This document shows positions 33,098 to 41,908 of a stretch of 41,908 bases of DNA, one piece after another; positions within the stretch are counted from its first letter, which is position 1, and each line of letters starts with the position of its first letter. The translations under genes and the position numbers were made by a program. Location of the stretch: NCBI GenBank assembly GCA_902785065.1, contig CACZXH010000024.1, forward strand, positions 1-41,908. Reading direction: 5' to 3'. The stretch comes from an uncultured Bacteroidia bacterium (GTDB taxonomy: Bacteria; Bacteroidota; Bacteroidia; Bacteroidales; UBA932). The notes under the pieces were generated by a model, which saw nothing but the letters and a program-made list of their open reading frames with translations, was not told the origin of the DNA and ran no database searches.

Positions 33098-36000
33098 TTA
33101 GGCAATCTCTTTGATTCGCGCAAAGTGCATTACGCTACCAGGAATAGGTTCCACCATATTCCATTTAATCTGCATTTGAGAGCGGATGCCGAGGTTTTTG
33201 TATTCCCAGTCTTTTAGTGTTACTCGCCCTAAATAGACATATCCCATTGTACGAGACTTATCTTCTACGAAGTTCTTTTGTTCACGCACAAAGAGAAGCA
33301 TGGTCTGCGTTTGTTTGATATAAGCCTGCCCTTCATTTGATTCCGGTCTTACACGATTCTGAGTGTCCCACTGGAACAGATCAGGAGAGAGAGCCTTGTC
33401 GTCATAATCAGTTGTAGATCCTTCTTCTCGATTCTTAATAATATCGACAAACATCGCCTCAATGTTCATTTGCCGATTGCGCTCCACTCCTTCTCTAGCG
33501 GAGGATTTCCTCTTTAGAGTTGACGTTCCAATTGCAACCTGGATTTGAGCCTTTGTATAGATTCCGTGGAGTTTTAACGGGAAATCGGGAATGAGAGAAT
33601 TATCTTCTTTTTCATAGGCATTGTTGCTTTGCAGAATCAAATTCATTACTTCTCCCAACTCTTTACAGAAAATGGCGTCTTTGCCCAATGCATTAACCAT
33701 CTCTTGAAGAGTGTTGAACCGTCCAGCGTCCTCAAATAGATCATAGTAAAGCATTAATAGCCATTTTTGTTCGATAGAACTCATTTTATCGACATTGACC
33801 TTGAACGACATTTCCGCGAGTTGCTTGATGAAGTTCAGGTATGAATATGAATCAGTCGCCAGCCATTTACGGAATACCGCTCGGCTTAATTCAACATTAA
33901 ATGAGGAGCAGTCTTGAGCTACTCCAGCTTCATATAATGTTTGGTTCCACGTTCTTCCCCTATAGATTTTTTCCAGAGGGGCTTGATAAATCCGAACAAA
34001 AGAGGATAAAGAAAGAGGTACTGAATGATTCTTCTCAAAGTTCTGCACAAGTGCATTAATCCGTCGCGCTGTGAAACGTTGAATAGCACCTCGAATGTTG
34101 TTCATGATATACTCTTTCGCTTTAGGCTCGAGCATTATCTGACATCCTAAAGGTAAGTGCGGACAGTCTCTTTCCATTTCTTCGGCCACGCTCATCGATG
34201 TACGTCCCAGCATCACTCGCATCCGATCAGTATAGTTAAACTCTGCGCGGCTATTACCGACATAGTCTAGAATGTTGACATGTGTTTTCCCTTCTGCTTT
34301 ACGGAGACCACGACCGAATTGTTGAATAAAAACAGTGAGGCTATTTGTCGGGCGAAGGAAAAGAATGGTATCGACTTCTGGGATATCCACACCCTCGTTG
34401 AACATATCTACGACGAACAAGTAATTAATTTCCTTATTCTTTAATCGCCGGTAAAGAGGAGCTCGCATTGGTTCATTTTCACTCGTGAGAAAAGCAGCTT
34501 TAAGTCCGCATAGTATAAACTTGGATGCCATGTATTTGGCATGCTCTTGACTCACACAGAAACATAGGGCGCGAACGTTTCGTATGTCAGTCAAATAACG
34601 CTGTAGAGATTGCAGAATAACGGCAGTTCGAGAATCATTGGCGGTGTAGATTCGAGATAACTCTGAAGCGACATATTGACCTTTCTCCCAAGCCACTTCT
34701 GAATAATCCACTGAATCTGTGATCCCGTAATAGTGGAATGGCGCAAGTAAACCTTTATTCAAGGCATCATCAAGTCTTATTTCTGCTGAGATGATTCCGT
34801 CAAAATCTTGTGTAATATCTTCTCCATCCATTCTCTCCGGGGTAGCGGTTAGTCCCAACAAAATCTTCGGCGTGAAATAATTGATGATTTTGCGATAAGA
34901 TGAGGCTGCTACATGATGGACTTCATCTATTATTATGTAGTCGTAGTAATCCGCGGGCAAATGTAATTCTTCCAGGTGATTGTTTAATGTATCCTTAGAG
35001 GCAAAGACGTGTTCGTAATTGGCTGGCTCTTCTCCAGCATACCATTTTTCGCCAAAATTGTAGTCGCAAAGGACATTTCGAAAAGTTTGGAGGCTTTGTT
35101 TAAGAATTTCTTCCCGATGGGCAACAAACAGAAGACGAGCACGATCGTGCTGCTCGGTAAACGACTTATAATCACTTGCTGCCATTACCGTTTTTCCTGT
35201 TCCTGTTGCAGCAACTACGAGATTCCTCCAATGGTTTCGTACCTCGCGTTCAACCTGCAGGCGCTCCAATATTTCTTGTTGATAGTCGAATGGTCGAATT
35301 AGCCCTTTGAGCGTATTAAAGTCAATATCGTTGTTCACTTCGCCATTAAGGGCTTCTTTTAAACGGTCATTATCCTCTCCAGCCACAAATGCTTCATATC
35401 CCTCTGCCCACCATGCAGCTTCGAAAGCACCAACGATTGTTTTCATCATCTTCGGCTGCTCAAGTTGCGTGACCTTCACATTCCACTCAGCACCCGTGTC
35501 AAGAGCCTGCTCGGAGAGATTAGAAGATCCGACATAAGCCGTATTAAAGCCTGTTTCGCGTAAAAAGATGTACGCTTTGGCATGAAGCCGTTCTTCCGTT
35601 ATGTCGTATGTGATTTTAATCTCTGTGTTCTTTAGCGAAGAGAGTTGCAAAACAGCCTCGTAGTCTGTAGCCTGCATATAAGTCGTAGTAATCACTTTTA
35701 ATTGTCCACCTCTATTGGTAAAGTCTTTTAGCTGAGGCAATATAAGTGCGAGGCCGCGTTTCTTAATGAAGGAAACCATCAAACGGATTTCGTCCGAAGA
35801 CGCAATCTCTTTCTGAAGTTCTGTATACAGCTTTATTCCTTTTCCAGTGAATAGAGCGCCATTAACAAGACCATTTATAGGCATTATTTCCGAAAGGCGT
35901 TTAGCTAAATCCGGATAATCAAATTGTGTCTTATCAATAACTGCAGTTAGGATTCTCGCCTGGGCGGAAACAAGATTACCGGAGTCAAGATGAAAGTCTG

Positions 36001-36262
36001 AGACAAGCTTGCGAATAATCGAATTTGCCAGATTTAGCCCGTTCTGGATAGAAGAATCATTACTCTCTTCCTCCTCATCAGAGGAATCAACAACTTCTGT
36101 GAGAACTTGTTCAAATATATTTGTCAAATACATCGAAAGAAGTTTTGCCACCTCATTTTTGGCGATGGGGCGTTCTCCTATGTAAAACCGAGTCCGATCT
36201 AGAGAGGATATCTTCTCTTCAAAGAGATCATTAATAATTTGCTCGTAGACTCCAAGTTTCAT
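33098..36262 (-). CDS. PLD nuclease-SF2 helicase-DUF3427 protein
   Basis: A 1054-residue cytoplasmic protein. The frame opens at 36412, but ATG 36262 (MKLGVYEQIINDLFEEK) is the family-like start and follows a -7 box. Domain order: residues 140-290 PLD-like nuclease with LHAKAY (His 227, Lys 229) and GSSNLSEQAL; residues 320-670 superfamily 2 helicase with Walker A AATGTGKT (351-358), DEVH box (446-449), LTATPER (471-477) and QFGRGLR (648-654); residues 680-1054 DUF3427-like tail (LSPDLFQWDTQNRVRPESNE, FVREQKNF). A single HKD motif suggests dimerisation to form one nuclease site. Such proteins occur in mobile islands and are thought to process DNA; a defence role is inferred. It is AT-rich against its surroundings and divergent from the XRE-EVE gene. 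Confidence 0.88.
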   Translation of the reverse strand: MKLGVYEQIINDLFEEKISSLDRTRFYIGERPIAKNEVAKLLSMYLTNIFEQVLTEVVDSSDEEEESNDSSIQNGLNLANSIIRKLVSDFHLDSGNLVSAQARILTAVIDKTQFDYPDLAKRLSEIMPINGLVNGALFTGKGIKLYTELQKEIASSDEIRLMVSFIKKRGLALILPQLKDFTNRGGQLKVITTTYMQATDYEAVLQLSSLKNTEIKITYDITEERLHAKAYIFLRETGFNTAYVGSSNLSEQALDTGAEWNVKVTQLEQPKMMKTIVGAFEAAWWAEGYEAFVAGEDNDRLKEALNGEVNNDIDFNTLKGLIRPFDYQQEILERLQVEREVRNHWRNLVVAATGTGKTVMAASDYKSFTEQHDRARLLFVAHREEILKQSLQTFRNVLCDYNFGEKWYAGEEPANYEHVFASKDTLNNHLEELHLPADYYDYIIIDEVHHVAASSYRKIINYFTPKILLGLTATPERMDGEDITQDFDGIISAEIRLDDALNKGLLAPFHYYGITDSVDYSEVAWEKGQYVASELSRIYTANDSRTAVILQSLQRYLTDIRNVRALCFCVSQEHAKYMASKFILCGLKAAFLTSENEPMRAPLYRRLKNKEINYLFVVDMFNEGVDIPEVDTILFLRPTNSLTVFIQQFGRGLRKAEGKTHVNILDYVGNSRAEFNYTDRMRVMLGRTSMSVAEEMERDCPHLPLGCQIMLEPKAKEYIMNNIRGAIQRFTARRINALVQNFEKNHSVPLSLSSFVRIYQAPLEKIYRGRTWNQTLYEAGVAQDCSSFNVELSRAVFRKWLATDSYSYLNFIKQLAEMSFKVNVDKMSSIEQKWLLMLYYDLFEDAGRFNTLQEMVNALGKDAIFCKELGEVMNLILQSNNAYEKEDNSLIPDFPLKLHGIYTKAQIQVAIGTSTLKRKSSAREGVERNRQMNIEAMFVDIIKNREEGSTTDYDDKALSPDLFQWDTQNRVRPESNEGQAYIKQTQTMLLFVREQKNFVEDKSRTMGYVYLGRVTLKDWEYKNLGIRSQMQIKWNMVEPIPGSVMHFARIKEIA

Positions 36263-36307
36263 GTTCTCTGTATTCGAAAAGGGTATTCTGTATCTGCCTG
36301 CTTTAGG

Positions 36308-36315
36308 CAAAGTTA
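36308..36315 (-). promoter_or_regulatory. -7 box for the helicase gene
   Basis: Reads TAACTTTG on the - strand, 45 bases before ATG 36262. It supports that start over the longer frame, whose first codons lie upstream of this box. The -33 box is poor. Confidence 0.55.
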
Positions 36316-36405
36316 GGAATATAATTCGAACAGGGTAGCAGAAACGGCTAACAATCGACAGTTGATACTTTAACGAAACACACCGAGTATAATTCAATTG
36401 TATAA

Positions 36406-36436
36406 TTTGCAAATCGAATTATTCTTTCTATATTTG
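36406..36436 (+). promoter_or_regulatory. Consensus promoter of the XRE-EVE/CoiA operon
   Basis: TTTG (36406-36409), exactly 19 bases, TATATTTG (36429-36436): a perfect Bacteroidota promoter. The TTTG box is inside the palindrome ATTTGCAAAT (36405-36414), a possible repressor site. Confidence 0.8.
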
Positions 36437-36456
36437 CTTCCGTAATACAGATTTTA

Positions 36457-36468
36457 GGGGAATTCCCC
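36457..36468. promoter_or_regulatory. Palindromic candidate operator GGGGAATTCCCC
   Basis: A perfect 12-base palindrome lies between the expected transcription start (about 36443) and ATG 36485. Its position suits autorepression by the XRE-type protein encoded next, but binding is inferred only. Confidence 0.4.
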
Positions 36469-36484
36469 GTAGCTATTAAGTATT

Positions 36485-37399
36485 ATGGAAGTACAAACTA
36501 AAGTCAAATTCGTCAGCCTGAATAAGGTGACGGTTGAAACGCCACTAGGTGACCGTTTCACAGTGGGACTGAATCGAGTGGTCCCTATGCCACTTCAAGA
36601 GCAAGACGCTCGTGTCATTGCTTATCTCTTCGACAAATATTACAAAGGAGACCCGTCCGTCATCATGGGACCGATTTATCGGGAAATGATGGTGAATGGG
36701 TGTTGGGCGGCACCGTATTGGTATGGCCCGGATCGTGACAATGAAAGGGAGCGCATCGGTGCTCAGATTCGCGCCCTGCGTGAAGAGCGCCGTCTGGAAG
36801 CTAAAGAGTTGGCTGAGTATGCCGATATAGATGCCTCCAACCTCTCTCGCATTGAGAAGGGAAAGTTCTCTCCTGGGCTTGATGTCCTTTGTAAGATTGC
36901 TGCAGCTATGGATTGTTCTGTAGAGATTGTGCCGATTGGTGCCGCCAGCAATCATTACGAGGTCCACCGCGCCGCACGTGAAATCCCTGAGGACCATCGC
37001 AGCCTAATGATTACAGCCAAGAATTCTACCTTCCGTCTGGCTGATTGCTTAGCGAAATATGGTGAATACCATTGGCAGCAGACACGGTACAATATCAACA
37101 TTGGGGATATTGTATATGTCTACGTGTCTGAAGACCGAGCAATTAAGTATAAGATGACGGTAGAGCAGGTCGATGAACCTTATGACCGCTGGATGGCAAA
37201 AGAGGAGGAGTTCTGGGTAGATAAGGAACGCATCCAGGATGAATCCCAAACCAAATACGCTCTTCTTCGCTTGGTCAAAGAATCACGATCTGGTAAGCTC
37301 ACCGAAGAGAATCTATTGAAGCACGGATTCCTCCGTGCTCCTCAGGGCATCAAGTACTTGGAAGGCGATCTTCTGAAGTTCATCGAAAGGAAGTTCTAG
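36485..37399 (+). CDS. XRE-type HTH protein fused to an EVE-like domain
   Basis: A 304-residue cytoplasmic protein in three parts. Residues 1-85 are an unrecognised N-terminal domain (VSLNKVTVETPLGDRF). Residues 90-150 are a helix-turn-helix of the XRE/Cro type (IGAQIRALREERRLEAKELA, then DASNLSRIEKGKFSPGLDVL). Residues 173-304 resemble EVE/PUA-like nucleic-acid binders: MITAKNSTFRLADCLAKYGE, WQQTRYNINIGDIVYVYVS, AIKYKMTVEQVD, and LRAPQGIKYLEGDLLKFIER. EVE domains in other proteins recognise modified bases such as 5-methylcytosine. The EVE call is from motif pattern and is the least certain. The gene has a consensus promoter with two palindromes, and the next gene begins 2 bases after its TAG stop, so the two are coupled. 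Confidence 0.7.
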   Translation: MEVQTKVKFVSLNKVTVETPLGDRFTVGLNRVVPMPLQEQDARVIAYLFDKYYKGDPSVIMGPIYREMMVNGCWAAPYWYGPDRDNERERIGAQIRALREERRLEAKELAEYADIDASNLSRIEKGKFSPGLDVLCKIAAAMDCSVEIVPIGAASNHYEVHRAAREIPEDHRSLMITAKNSTFRLADCLAKYGEYHWQQTRYNINIGDIVYVYVSEDRAIKYKMTVEQVDEPYDRWMAKEEEFWVDKERIQDESQTKYALLRLVKESRSGKLTEENLLKHGFLRAPQGIKYLEGDLLKFIERKF

Positions 37400-37401
37400 C
37401 C

Positions 37402-38411
37402 ATGGGTGCATTTCTGACCTATGCGTTGGATGAAGGCGGAGCCCTCGTCCACGTCGATGATGTCGCCAAAGGTGCCAAGTGTGCTTGCCGCTGCCCCCAC
37501 TGTAATGCCCCACTTTATGCCAAGAATGGCGGGAGATGGCCTGAACCAGGGACACGTATACACCATTTTGCTCATGCGCAAGGGCATGAATGTGAAGGAG
37601 CCTACGAATCTTCTCTACACCTTTTGGCGAAGGTAATCCTTCAAGAAACCGGGCGAATAATGTTACCTAAGTCCAACGGCTCTTTCTTTCCCTCCGGCTC
37701 TGTTCGTATCCGAAATGTTGAGATTGAGAATGGGATGACCGCTACGGAATCAGACCAGATGCTGAAGGTATTATGGACAATGGCGAACGTCTTCTCATTG
37801 AGTTCTATGTCAGCCATAAAGTCGATAGCAAAAAGCGCCAAATTATTGTTGATAACCATCTCAAATGCATCGAGATAGACATAAACTACCAAGCCCTGGA
37901 TAAAGCAGAGTTGAAAGAGTTTCTGACAGGTACGGACGAAGATCGCAAATGGATCGTATCAATACCTTCACCGCCACAATCGAAGGGAGAATCCTTCAGC
38001 TACGGAAGAAATCCCATGTACGAGAAGACCAGGGACATCCTCAAGGAAATCTTCGATAAAGGCACCATTACCATCCATCCATTTGCTTCGTCATTCTCTC
38101 AAGTGAACAAGTCATTCGACCTCCGCAAGGTTGGCTATGACGTATGTGAAGTCAATACGAGGTGGAGAGGCTTCAAATCTGATTTGCTCCTATACCGAAG
38201 CCAGAAAAAAGACAAGGGCCACATTTCTATCAATATACGCGGTCGACGACGTAGTGAAGGCTTCCGTTACCCTAAAGGCCTTCGAATAATCGACATTGTA
38301 TTCAAAGCCATTGACTCAGAAGAGAGTACAAAAAAAAGACTAAATGATGAGAATCTGGTTGGTGACTTAGGAATGACCGTGGAATACTATGGATTTAGGA
38401 CAGAGAAGTAA
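37402..38411 (+). pseudogene. CoiA-like nuclease, one-base frameshift
   Basis: The first frame (37402 to about 37740) encodes a CoiA-like N-terminus: VDDVAKGAKCACRCPHCNAP (zinc Cys 31 and Cys 34), HHFAHAQGHEC, and ESSLHLLAKVILQETG. Near 37741 one base seems to be missing. In the next frame the nuclease core continues as GIRPDAEGIMDNGERLLIEF and YVSHKVDSKKRQII, that is, Asp then IEF with Lys, the pattern of a PD-(D/E)XK-type fold. The C-terminal half (RWRGFKSDLLLYRSQKKDKG, INIRGRRRSEGFRYPKG) is less familiar. CoiA proteins act on DNA in competence; here the gene is coupled to the XRE-EVE gene, which suggests a nuclease effector. No slippery heptamer is seen at the break, so a mutation or base error is more likely than programmed frameshifting. 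Confidence 0.65.
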
Positions 38412-38430
38412 GACCGCTATATAATACGGA

Positions 38431-38455
38431 GGGCTGACGTAGCAATCGTCAGCCC
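38431..38455. terminator. 9-pair hairpin after the CoiA-like gene
   Basis: GGGCTGACG (38431-38439) and CGTCAGCCC (38447-38455), loop TAGCAAT, 19 bases after the stop. No T-run follows on the + strand, so it may be a weak terminator or a 3' stabiliser; it would also be part of any leftward RNA from the promoter at 38487-38517. Confidence 0.55.
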
Positions 38456-38486
38456 AGAGATTAGCGAATCCGTAGAATCGCTGATG

Positions 38487-38517
38487 CAAAGGTAATACAT
38501 TTTCCCGATTCTGCAAA
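38487..38517 (-). promoter_or_regulatory. Consensus promoter pointing left, toward the CoiA-like gene
   Basis: On the - strand: TTTG (38517-38514), exactly 19 bases, TACCTTTG (38494-38487). Transcription would start near 38480 and run through AGCGA...TCGCT and the 38431-38455 hairpin into the CoiA-like gene, antisense. No leftward coding gene is near, so an antisense or small RNA is suggested. Confidence 0.6.
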
Positions 38518-41101: not shown

Positions 41102-41207
41102 GGAGAGGACGAGAATCGTAAATCTAGTCCAGTCCCCTCTAGAAGGCTCTGGAAAGCGTTTATAATCAATGCTATTTTTTAGACGCATGTGTTGGAATAT
41201 TCAGAAA

Positions 41208-41231
41208 TTTGTCACACTTTTGTCACACTTT
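41208..41231 (+). repeat. Direct repeats TTTGTCACACTTT before the recombinase gene
   Basis: Two copies 11 bases apart (41208-41220 and 41219-41231), ending 24 bases before ATG 41255. The core TTTGTCACAC also occurs at 39827-39836. Spacing of one helical turn suggests protein binding, for example recombinase arm sites or an operator. Confidence 0.45.
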
Positions 41232-41254
41232 GTGATTACGAATGTGAACGAATT

Positions 41255-41908
41255 ATGAACCTCAAGTACCGAATCGCCTTCAAACTCCGCCCCTACGGGA
41301 AGACTAAAACTGCCTATCAGATCCAGCAGCACGTTACGTTCAACAGCCTCCGTCTGATTACCTCTACCGGTTGTCAGATAGAAGACCTTTCTGCCTGGGA
41401 CGAAGAGAACCAACTTGTCAAATCGAACTATAAGGGCCAGAGAGGAGAGACCGCACTTAAGATCAACACCACGCTCCGGAATTGTCGTGAGCAGATGGAA
41501 TCGACCTTCAAGTTTTTCGAGGGTAACGATATCATTCCGACCAAGCAACAGGTTCAGGAAAGGTACGAGGCCCGTTTGCACGGTACTGTCCCTCAGCGAC
41601 CGGCTCCGGAGCCGAAGAAGGAGCGCAAGCCAAAAGAGCCGGATTTCTTCAAGACCTATGATATGTTCCTGAAAGAATGCGGCGAAAAGAACGCCTGGAC
41701 GGAAGCTACCTTCGAGAAGATGGAGGCGATGCGTGTCGATCTGACCACTTTCAAGAAGAACATCAAGTTCTCCGACCTGACGGAAGCCACCTTGACGGAA
41801 TTCGTCGCGTATATGCGCGACAGCAAGAAGCTTCGCACTCCCCGGAAAAAGAAGGGAGAAAGAGATGATTATGATCAGGAGGATCTGGTGGGCCTGAAGA
41901 ACTCCACC
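41255..41908 (+). CDS. Tyrosine recombinase/integrase, N-terminal part only
   Basis: The frame runs open from ATG 41255 to the right edge (218 codons). The N-terminus MNLKYRIAFKLRPYGKTKTA and LRLITSTGCQIEDLSAWDEE resemble the arm-binding domain of Bacteroidota integrases. A basic linker (KKERKPKEPDFFKTYDMFLK) leads into a SAM-like core-binding domain (FEKMEAMRVDLTTFKKNIKF, TEATLTEFVAYMRDSKKL). The catalytic Arg-His-Arg-Tyr domain would lie beyond the window. ATG 41255 follows stops in the same frame. It suggests that a mobile element extends to the right, with its attachment site probably in 40633-41254. Confidence 0.8.
   Translation, partial: MNLKYRIAFKLRPYGKTKTAYQIQQHVTFNSLRLITSTGCQIEDLSAWDEENQLVKSNYKGQRGETALKINTTLRNCREQMESTFKFFEGNDIIPTKQQVQERYEARLHGTVPQRPAPEPKKERKPKEPDFFKTYDMFLKECGEKNAWTEATFEKMEAMRVDLTTFKKNIKFSDLTEATLTEFVAYMRDSKKLRTPRKKKGERDDYDQEDLVGLKNST

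Follow-up and report, generated by a model that had tools for sequence, protein, structure and literature searches.

The Locus and Its Genes

The window analyzed here, that is, the whole stretch of DNA, is one whole contig of 41,908 bases (CACZXH010000024.1) from the 2.74-Mb genome of an uncultured Bacteroidia bacterium. We studied a group of genes at 33-39 kb, consisting of a helicase gene and, divergent from it, a gene for a helix-turn-helix (HTH) protein with an EVE-like domain (XRE-EVE) followed by a CoiA-like gene; the last two are termed the cassette below. An initial annotation had proposed all three as one new defence or DNA-processing system. The gene positions and the divergent layout that it gave were confirmed in the open reading frames (ORFs). 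The helicase ORF 33098-36412 on the minus strand diverges from 36485-37399 and from the frames 37402-37878 and 37773-38411, all on the plus strand. Its description of an AT-rich block was also correct, with 41-47% GC across 33-39 kb compared to 60-67% in most of the remaining window. The low-GC block is probably an acquired island. Its features are:

33098..36262, minus strand: predicted SauUSI-family type IV restriction enzyme, 1054 residues, with PLD nuclease, SF2 helicase and DUF3427 region (Pfam, PADLOC, PDB, motifs)
36406-36436, plus strand: candidate XRE-EVE promoter TTTG-N19-TATATTTG (block conserved, with changes, 5' of all four XRE-EVE genes)
36457-36468, no strand: 12-base perfect palindrome GGGGAATTCCCC, candidate operator or hairpin of the 5' untranslated region (comparison across four loci)
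36485..37399, plus strand: XRE-EVE protein, 304 residues, with N-terminal region 1-85, XRE HTH 95-147 and EVE/ASCH-like domain at about 170-304
37402..37878, plus strand: CoiA-like gene, N-terminal piece (zinc domain), terminating in the wrong frame (CoiA_N 0.003, below cut-off)
37773..38411, plus strand: CoiA-like gene, C-terminal piece (predicted nuclease core and tail; match to intact relative)
38416..38502, no strand: hairpin-bearing stretch 3' of the cassette (78.7% identity over 89 bases with locus L059)

The Two-Gene Cassette

Relatives were searched for in 295 genomes of the order with three queries, the EVE part, the CoiA-like protein and the SauUSI-like helicase protein. The EVE part matched in 7 of these genomes and the CoiA-like protein in 10, with the own genome in both lists, and only the own genome was present in the EVE, CoiA and SauUSI lists alike. 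In genome G221 the EVE and CoiA families both occur, but on separate contigs. When 84,980 species, each represented by one genome, were scanned by pattern, 27 EVE-family loci were found, three of which (L059, L060, and L061) encode a whole XRE-EVE protein. The window protein was found to be 94.7-95.7% identical to these three versions. L061 is a contig of genome G178, and the XRE-EVE and CoiA-like genes are adjacent there.

The distance between the XRE-EVE stop and the nuclease start was 2 bases in all four XRE-EVE loci (the window, L059, L060, and L061). The nuclease gene is CoiA-like in the window, L059 and L061, and in L060 an HNH_3 gene (Pfam) stands in its place. DNA homology between the window and L061 was limited to 36391-38395 (79%) within a 20-kb stretch. 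Homology to L059 covered 36388-38395 (81%) and the 89-base hairpin stretch, and homology to L060 covered 36389-37405 only (88%), stopping at the nuclease start codon. The left neighbour in L059 is a Schlafen-group-3 helicase gene in the same orientation as the pair (PADLOC PDC-S41, 2.1e-246). In L061 it is a divergent Schlafen-group-3 helicase gene, 73% identical to that of L059, and in L060 it is the SRP54 (ffh) gene. Since the left neighbours differ and the L060 homology stops at the junction, the gene on the left can change from locus to locus, and the nuclease is exchangeable at the junction.

The XRE-EVE gene and the nuclease gene are a real two-gene unit, and at one locus (L060) the alignments show the nuclease, CoiA-like or HNH, as apparently exchanged at the gene junction. 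The adjacency that had been expected of the three genes was therefore found for XRE-EVE and its nuclease gene, but not for the SauUSI-like gene beside the pair.

In XRE-EVE, 118 codon changes between the window and L061 were synonymous and 16 were not; for the HTH part the numbers were 34 and 0. A tree of the XRE-EVE group did not resolve its internal order (support 59 and 49), and raw distances alone place L060 nearest to L059. The hairpin stretch at 38416-38502 corresponds to L059:7302-7390, where it is inverted and lies upstream of XRE-EVE, a possible trace of cassette movement. It gave one match in its own genome and hence is no dispersed repeat there.

The XRE-EVE Protein

Pfam identified the XRE HTH at 95-147 (HTH_3, 1.5e-11), while residues 1-85 had no Pfam match and the C-terminal domain matched no EVE or other Pfam model within E 0.1. 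In the AlphaFold model the C-terminal domain had block means of the confidence score pLDDT of 67-92; scores fell below 50 in the poorly modelled N-terminal region and over most of the HTH. The best Foldseek matches of the C-terminal domain were ZmASCH (1e-5), human THYN1 with 5-methylcytosine (5mC) DNA (4.5e-4) and 2eve (1.5e-3; probability 1.00), with YTH readers next. A PDB profile search with XRE-EVE gave mostly HTH regulators and neither EVE nor ASCH. The proposed fusion of an HTH to an EVE-like domain thus stood as an XRE HTH with a C-terminal ASCH/EVE fold, but not as a profile match to EVE, and ASCH ranked first. The modelled structure supports a predicted reader fold of the PUA superfamily, which may be EVE or ASCH; we call the protein EVE-like by fold and relatives and do not file it as an EVE member. 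In type IV systems EVE is predicted to act as a specificity domain (PMC7641849), and the EVE domain of VcaM4I is described to flip 5mC and 5-hydroxymethylcytosine (PMC7897488).

About 95 bases 5' of XRE-EVE are common to all four loci, and homology ends beyond them. The TTTG-N19-TATATTTG block is a candidate promoter of the Bacteroidetes type, and its TTTG is absent in L060. The palindrome at 36457-36468 is also perfect in L060, has one extra central base in L059, and in L061 retains only the GGGG/CCCC arms around a changed centre. Autoregulation of XRE-EVE would be a reasonable inference from this arrangement.

The CoiA-Like Protein

Compared to an intact relative of 329 residues, the CoiA-like gene consists of two overlapping frames. 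The N-terminal piece is 84% identical to residues 1-105 of that relative, and the match at 37728-38399 is 78% identical to residues 105-328, as would be expected from a single frameshift near 37,730. Synonymous differences outnumbered others in the N-terminal piece (44 to 16 against L061 and 41 to 25 against L059) and in the C-terminal piece (81 to 48 and 70 to 39, respectively), so that the break is either recent or an assembly error; the intact CoiA-like pair differ by 120 synonymous and 66 other changes. A genuine frameshift would probably leave the cassette inactive in the window genome.

The CoiA_N model matched at E 0.01 or better in all 11 aligned relatives, at best with 7.6e-12; in the two intact close relatives the values were 0.00079 and 0.0036, below the Pfam cut-off. 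Invariant in the 11 CoiA-like proteins are, among others (L059 numbering), Cys27/31/34, His50/53, Cys59, E64, H68, K72, E104, D115, E129, H134, K140, and E153. The predicted core at 66-155 runs helix, three strands, helix, strand (block means of pLDDT 73-84 over 71-180), an order as would be expected of a PD-(D/E)XK nuclease. A PDB profile search with the protein gave no match. The assignment as a CoiA-like zinc and nuclease protein thus held for the CoiA_N family and the conserved residues, and stayed a prediction for the nuclease fold. The proposed check of both folds by profile and structure came out for EVE/ASCH in Foldseek, and for neither protein in the PDB profile search nor for CoiA in Foldseek.

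CoiA was predicted in 2005 to be a PD-(D/E)XK nuclease with a PD-EXQ site and is described for DNA uptake (PMC1189080). A CoiA-domain protein also belongs to a set of anti-phage defence systems that were discovered and then validated in E. coli (PMC9519451). Like the CoiA family (COG4469/PF06054), the window type has an N-terminal Cys/His domain and a conserved acidic core; it differs by being paired with XRE-EVE and by a C-terminal tail not common to the other aligned relatives.

Relatives of the XRE and EVE Parts

The N-terminal region and XRE HTH (about 150 residues, 36-45% identity) were also found without EVE at five loci, namely a Chryseobacterium oryzae plasmid (L026), two viral contigs (L101 and L102), and genomes G444 (L100) and G822 (L099). 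In L026, L101, and L102 an HNH nuclease gene related to that of L060 lies directly downstream; the L060 protein is 48% identical to that of L026 over 188 residues, 33% to that of L101 over 480 columns and 35% to that of L102 over 324. The downstream gene in L100 encodes an HNH_2 protein (scanned as L058). Altogether, the next downstream gene encodes a nuclease in eight of the nine loci of the XRE family; two of these eight lie in viral contigs, and one is plasmid-borne. The nucleases are CoiA-like in three loci (broken in the window), of the HNH_3 type in four and HNH_2 in one. The pairing of XRE with HNH without EVE may be the older one, with the EVE fusion and CoiA coming later, an order that the tree does not resolve.

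No XRE-EVE relatives were found in viral contigs by a single-sequence search, and none in phages. The plasmid search with XRE-EVE gave one relative, which lacks EVE. With the full protein, two genomes out of 395 in the phylum were hit at 1e-9, namely the own genome and G444, the latter without EVE, and an XRE-profile search of the order around G444 gave 2 of 298 genomes.

Three observations were made at these loci. Upstream of the XRE gene in L099 are a caspase-domain gene and an HSDR_N-like gene (below cut-off; L099:7479-8999). Similar small exported proteins were seen by eye 3' of two XRE-nuclease loci, encoded by the next gene in L060 (L060:12003-12587) and the third in L100 (L100:10347-10937). 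On Agrobacterium and Rhizobium plasmids (L103 and L104, two opened of six such plasmids), the domain that forms the C-terminal part of the L060 HNH protein is encoded by a gene of its own, close to DUF262 (GmrSD-like) genes.

Among the 24 EVE-family loci without XRE, the next gene encodes GmrSD_N, known from type IV enzymes, in 11, with neighbours chosen by an ORF heuristic. Upstream neighbours were scanned for 20 of the loci, and the ATPase families AAA_21 and AAA_15 were each identified in 6; the remaining 4 loci either yielded no such neighbour or were omitted. A separate EVE-like gene was seen directly 5' of a GmrSD-type gene in L062, L063, L065, L070, L073, L074, L075, L076, L077, L080, and L084. 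This GmrSD arrangement, in which the reader has a gene of its own, recurs in many of the Bacteroidales loci examined. One EVE-HNH fusion was found in a Treponema genome (L069:6823-7599), and its HNH part matches McrA (6ghc, 7.6e-5).

The Helicase Gene

The ORF 33098-36412 encodes 1104 residues from a TTG start, and an ATG at residue 51 gives the 1054 residues of 33098-36262. As the initial annotation had it, the protein joins PLD, SF2 helicase and DUF3427 parts, since PLDc_2 (5.6e-11), ResIII (9.2e-41), Helicase_C (2e-10) and DUF3427 (1.9e-23) all scored above the Pfam cut-offs. The DUF3427 match had 83.5 bits against a cut-off of 27.7 and covered profile positions 79-274 of 280. The best PADLOC model was mREase_IV, a type IV methyl-directed restriction enzyme (2.1e-200), and the best solved relative was PDB 7clg, a "putative helicase" of 953 residues (9.7e-80). 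The motifs HAK 227 (HxK), GSSN 245 (GSxN), GTGKT 354, DEVH 446, and QQFGRGLR 647 were found intact. As far as motifs and profiles tell, the protein has all that marks the SauUSI type, i.e., a PLD nuclease with HxK and GSxN, an SF2 motor in the same chain and a C-terminal DUF3427 region. DUF3427 is named in PMC3874153. SauUSI residue numbering is given up to 953 in PMC7913695, and from this shared last residue we infer that 7clg is SauUSI. The dimeric PLD domain of SauUSI is positioned for cleavage, its ATPase acts as translocase, and a C-terminal domain of SRA fold reads 5mC (PMC7913695).

By its sequence the product of 33098-36262 is a predicted SauUSI-family type IV restriction enzyme, which is a known kind. 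A novel status for this gene was excluded by the PADLOC mREase_IV and PDB 7clg matches, and the proposal that it forms part of a candidate new system was thereby not upheld. It has the PLD nuclease, SF2 helicase and C-terminal DUF3427 or target recognition domain of SauUSI in a single chain, but carries about 105 extra residues before the aligned part. Its recognition domain aligns weakly to 7clg (6.3 bits), so that the specificity of the window enzyme, in recognised base and sequence, may differ from that of SauUSI.

SauUSI-like matches at 1e-40 were found in 13 of the 295 genomes, the own included. For seven of the other 12 the surrounding stretch was fetched (5.3-13 kb each; the remaining five matches had lower scores or were incomplete), and these stretches contained neither an XRE-EVE nor a CoiA relative. 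NUDIX genes overlap the SauUSI-like gene in two of the seven opened genomes (L052:7789-8193 and L053:1539-1982).

Proposed Function of the Cassette

We read the locus, with a probability of roughly 0.5, as two independent defence units placed head to head, the cassette of XRE-EVE and nuclease being a modification-sensing restriction unit. Two unrelated readers would then act on incoming modified DNA, one being the recognition domain in the SauUSI-like enzyme and the other the EVE domain of XRE-EVE. By analogy with SauUSI, from which its activity is taken, the SauUSI-like enzyme would bind methylated or hydroxymethylated cytosine with its C-terminal domain, the SF2 motor would then translocate and the dimeric PLD domains would cut. 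In the cassette, the HTH of XRE-EVE would bind its own promoter and hold the operon low. The EVE domain would bind modified bases in DNA that enters the cell, or else modified nucleotides, and this binding would license or target the nuclease made with it, which would cut or be released. The cassette half of this scheme draws only on association, fold and conservation, and its mechanism may be read as targeting, as controlling or as toxin-antitoxin action. More tentatively, one sensor-regulator may have been retained while the nuclease was swapped by recombination at the junction, so that it drives CoiA-like or HNH effectors; relatives of such a modular immune cassette that have HNH partners but no EVE are carried by viral contigs and by a plasmid.

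Several findings weigh against modification-sensing restriction by the cassette. The best fold matches of the C-terminal domain of XRE-EVE are to ASCH and not EVE, and the Zymomonas ASCH protein is reportedly a ribonuclease. XRE-HNH pairs without EVE (L026, L101, and L102) show that XRE and nuclease can be partners in the absence of the reader, and one of the nine XRE loci (L099) has no nuclease next door, its downstream gene lacking a Pfam match. For the predicted nuclease fold of the CoiA-like protein Foldseek gave no significant match (best 4ic1, E 0.088). Two positions beyond E129 stands Tyr, Ala, Phe or Arg where Lys/Gln is customary, and the role of a migrated lysine would then fall to K140. 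The cassette is rare, with close copies in the own genome and G178 only among the 295, and nuclease exchange within the XRE-EVE group rests on one locus (L060).

The cassette resembles three known arrangements. EVE-HNH endonucleases such as VcaM4I also link a PUA-superfamily reader to a nuclease, as does the Treponema relative fused to HNH, whereas the window protein joins the reader to an XRE regulator, and the nuclease is encoded separately. In EVE-associated restriction systems an EVE specificity domain stands beside PD-(D/E)XK, HNH, PLD or GmrSD nucleases (Bell et al., 2020; PMC7641849); the XRE fusion mentioned there is to ASCH, in PIN-GNAT-EVE operons. Restriction-modification systems under a controller (C) protein share the order of XRE gene first and nuclease second, closely spaced, but the window regulator carries a fused domain of reader fold and no methyltransferase accompanies it among the ORFs scanned. 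No description of XRE-EVE paired with CoiA was found among the papers listed by searches of the openly licensed literature, and "CoiA" does not occur in the main text of the EVE census (PMC7641849).

If modification-sensing restriction by the cassette is correct, a regulator and a modified-base reader in one protein would serve exchangeable nucleases, and sensing would also set transcription as part of the defence logic. CoiA-like proteins, known mainly from competence, would gain a role among modification-dependent nucleases. The gene pair is small, can be moved to E. coli and can be assayed there.

Alternative Explanations

It is possible, if unlikely, that XRE-EVE is chiefly a controller resembling C proteins, which delays and tunes expression of the nuclease, and that EVE senses a modified nucleotide as inducing ligand and does not target. 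The XRE gene precedes the nuclease gene with its 2-base gap, the promoter block and palindrome are largely conserved, and XRE members without EVE likewise precede nucleases. The best PADLOC match of XRE-EVE was HTH_VI (1.9e-12), but a weak match to Control_protein (1.1e-4) was also obtained. Gene order and promoter block fit C proteins, and the length and fusion of XRE-EVE do not; its N-terminal region, too, is unlike that of C proteins, which weighs against a controller. C proteins control their own gene and that of the downstream restriction endonuclease, and fusions of the two are known (PMC3850674). A cluster of EVE proteins with contexts of ligand-activated regulation has also been described (PMC7641849). 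However, the systems guarded by C proteins are of type II and include a methyltransferase. Scanning 15 window ORFs revealed no methyltransferase; in L059-L061 the neighbouring genes were inspected by eye only, and no genome-wide search was made.

A toxin-antitoxin-like pair is a rather improbable explanation. XRE-EVE would here be antitoxin and repressor, and the nuclease a toxin released on infection (abortive infection). The small operon with XRE first, the exchangeable partner and the mobile contexts agree with this, as do the matches of the HTH to HipB/HigA-type regulators. The nucleases span 314-482 residues, however, which is large for toxins of toxin-antitoxin pairs. Nor was any sequence sign of direct contact with an antitoxin seen, though no search aimed at one was made.

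We consider it improbable to a still higher degree that the genes serve selfish or housekeeping DNA processing, with the HNH partners as free-standing nucleases of the homing type from phages and the CoiA-like protein acting in uptake or recombination and not in defence. The best PADLOC match of the HNH partner was indeed HEase (homing endonuclease, 1.1e-9), HNH pairs and CoiA relatives were both found in viral contigs, and CoiA is described for DNA uptake (see above). To our knowledge homing nucleases need no fused reader. The EVE relatives cluster with type IV enzymes, and candidate defence genes lie near the L061 cassette, where a YhcG nuclease gene, the Schlafen helicase gene and a PDC-M12B-like gene were found.

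Least probable is the single three-part system on modified DNA that was first proposed, which had in its favour that the genes are divergent neighbours in the window and all relate to modified or foreign DNA; it was excluded by the neighbours in other genomes, as none of the seven opened SauUSI relatives has an XRE-EVE or CoiA relative in the fetched stretch, all 12 other SauUSI-positive genomes are absent from the CoiA and EVE lists, and the DNA that the cassette shares with the other three loci starts at 36388-36391, short of the SauUSI-like ATG at 36262.

The Surrounding Region

An empty site was searched for within the same genus. The right-hand flanking gene was found in 1 of 30 other genomes, in a different context, and insertion was not proved by this search. 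A tyrosine-recombinase-like ORF at 41189-41908 is truncated by the contig end (Phage_int_SAM_5 at 22.2 bits, cut-off 22.3). This is compatible with acquisition of the region without proving it. The island adjoins a polysaccharide-utilisation region at window 2981-30082, with genes for a TonB-dependent receptor plug (below cut-off), SusD, GH97, and GH9.

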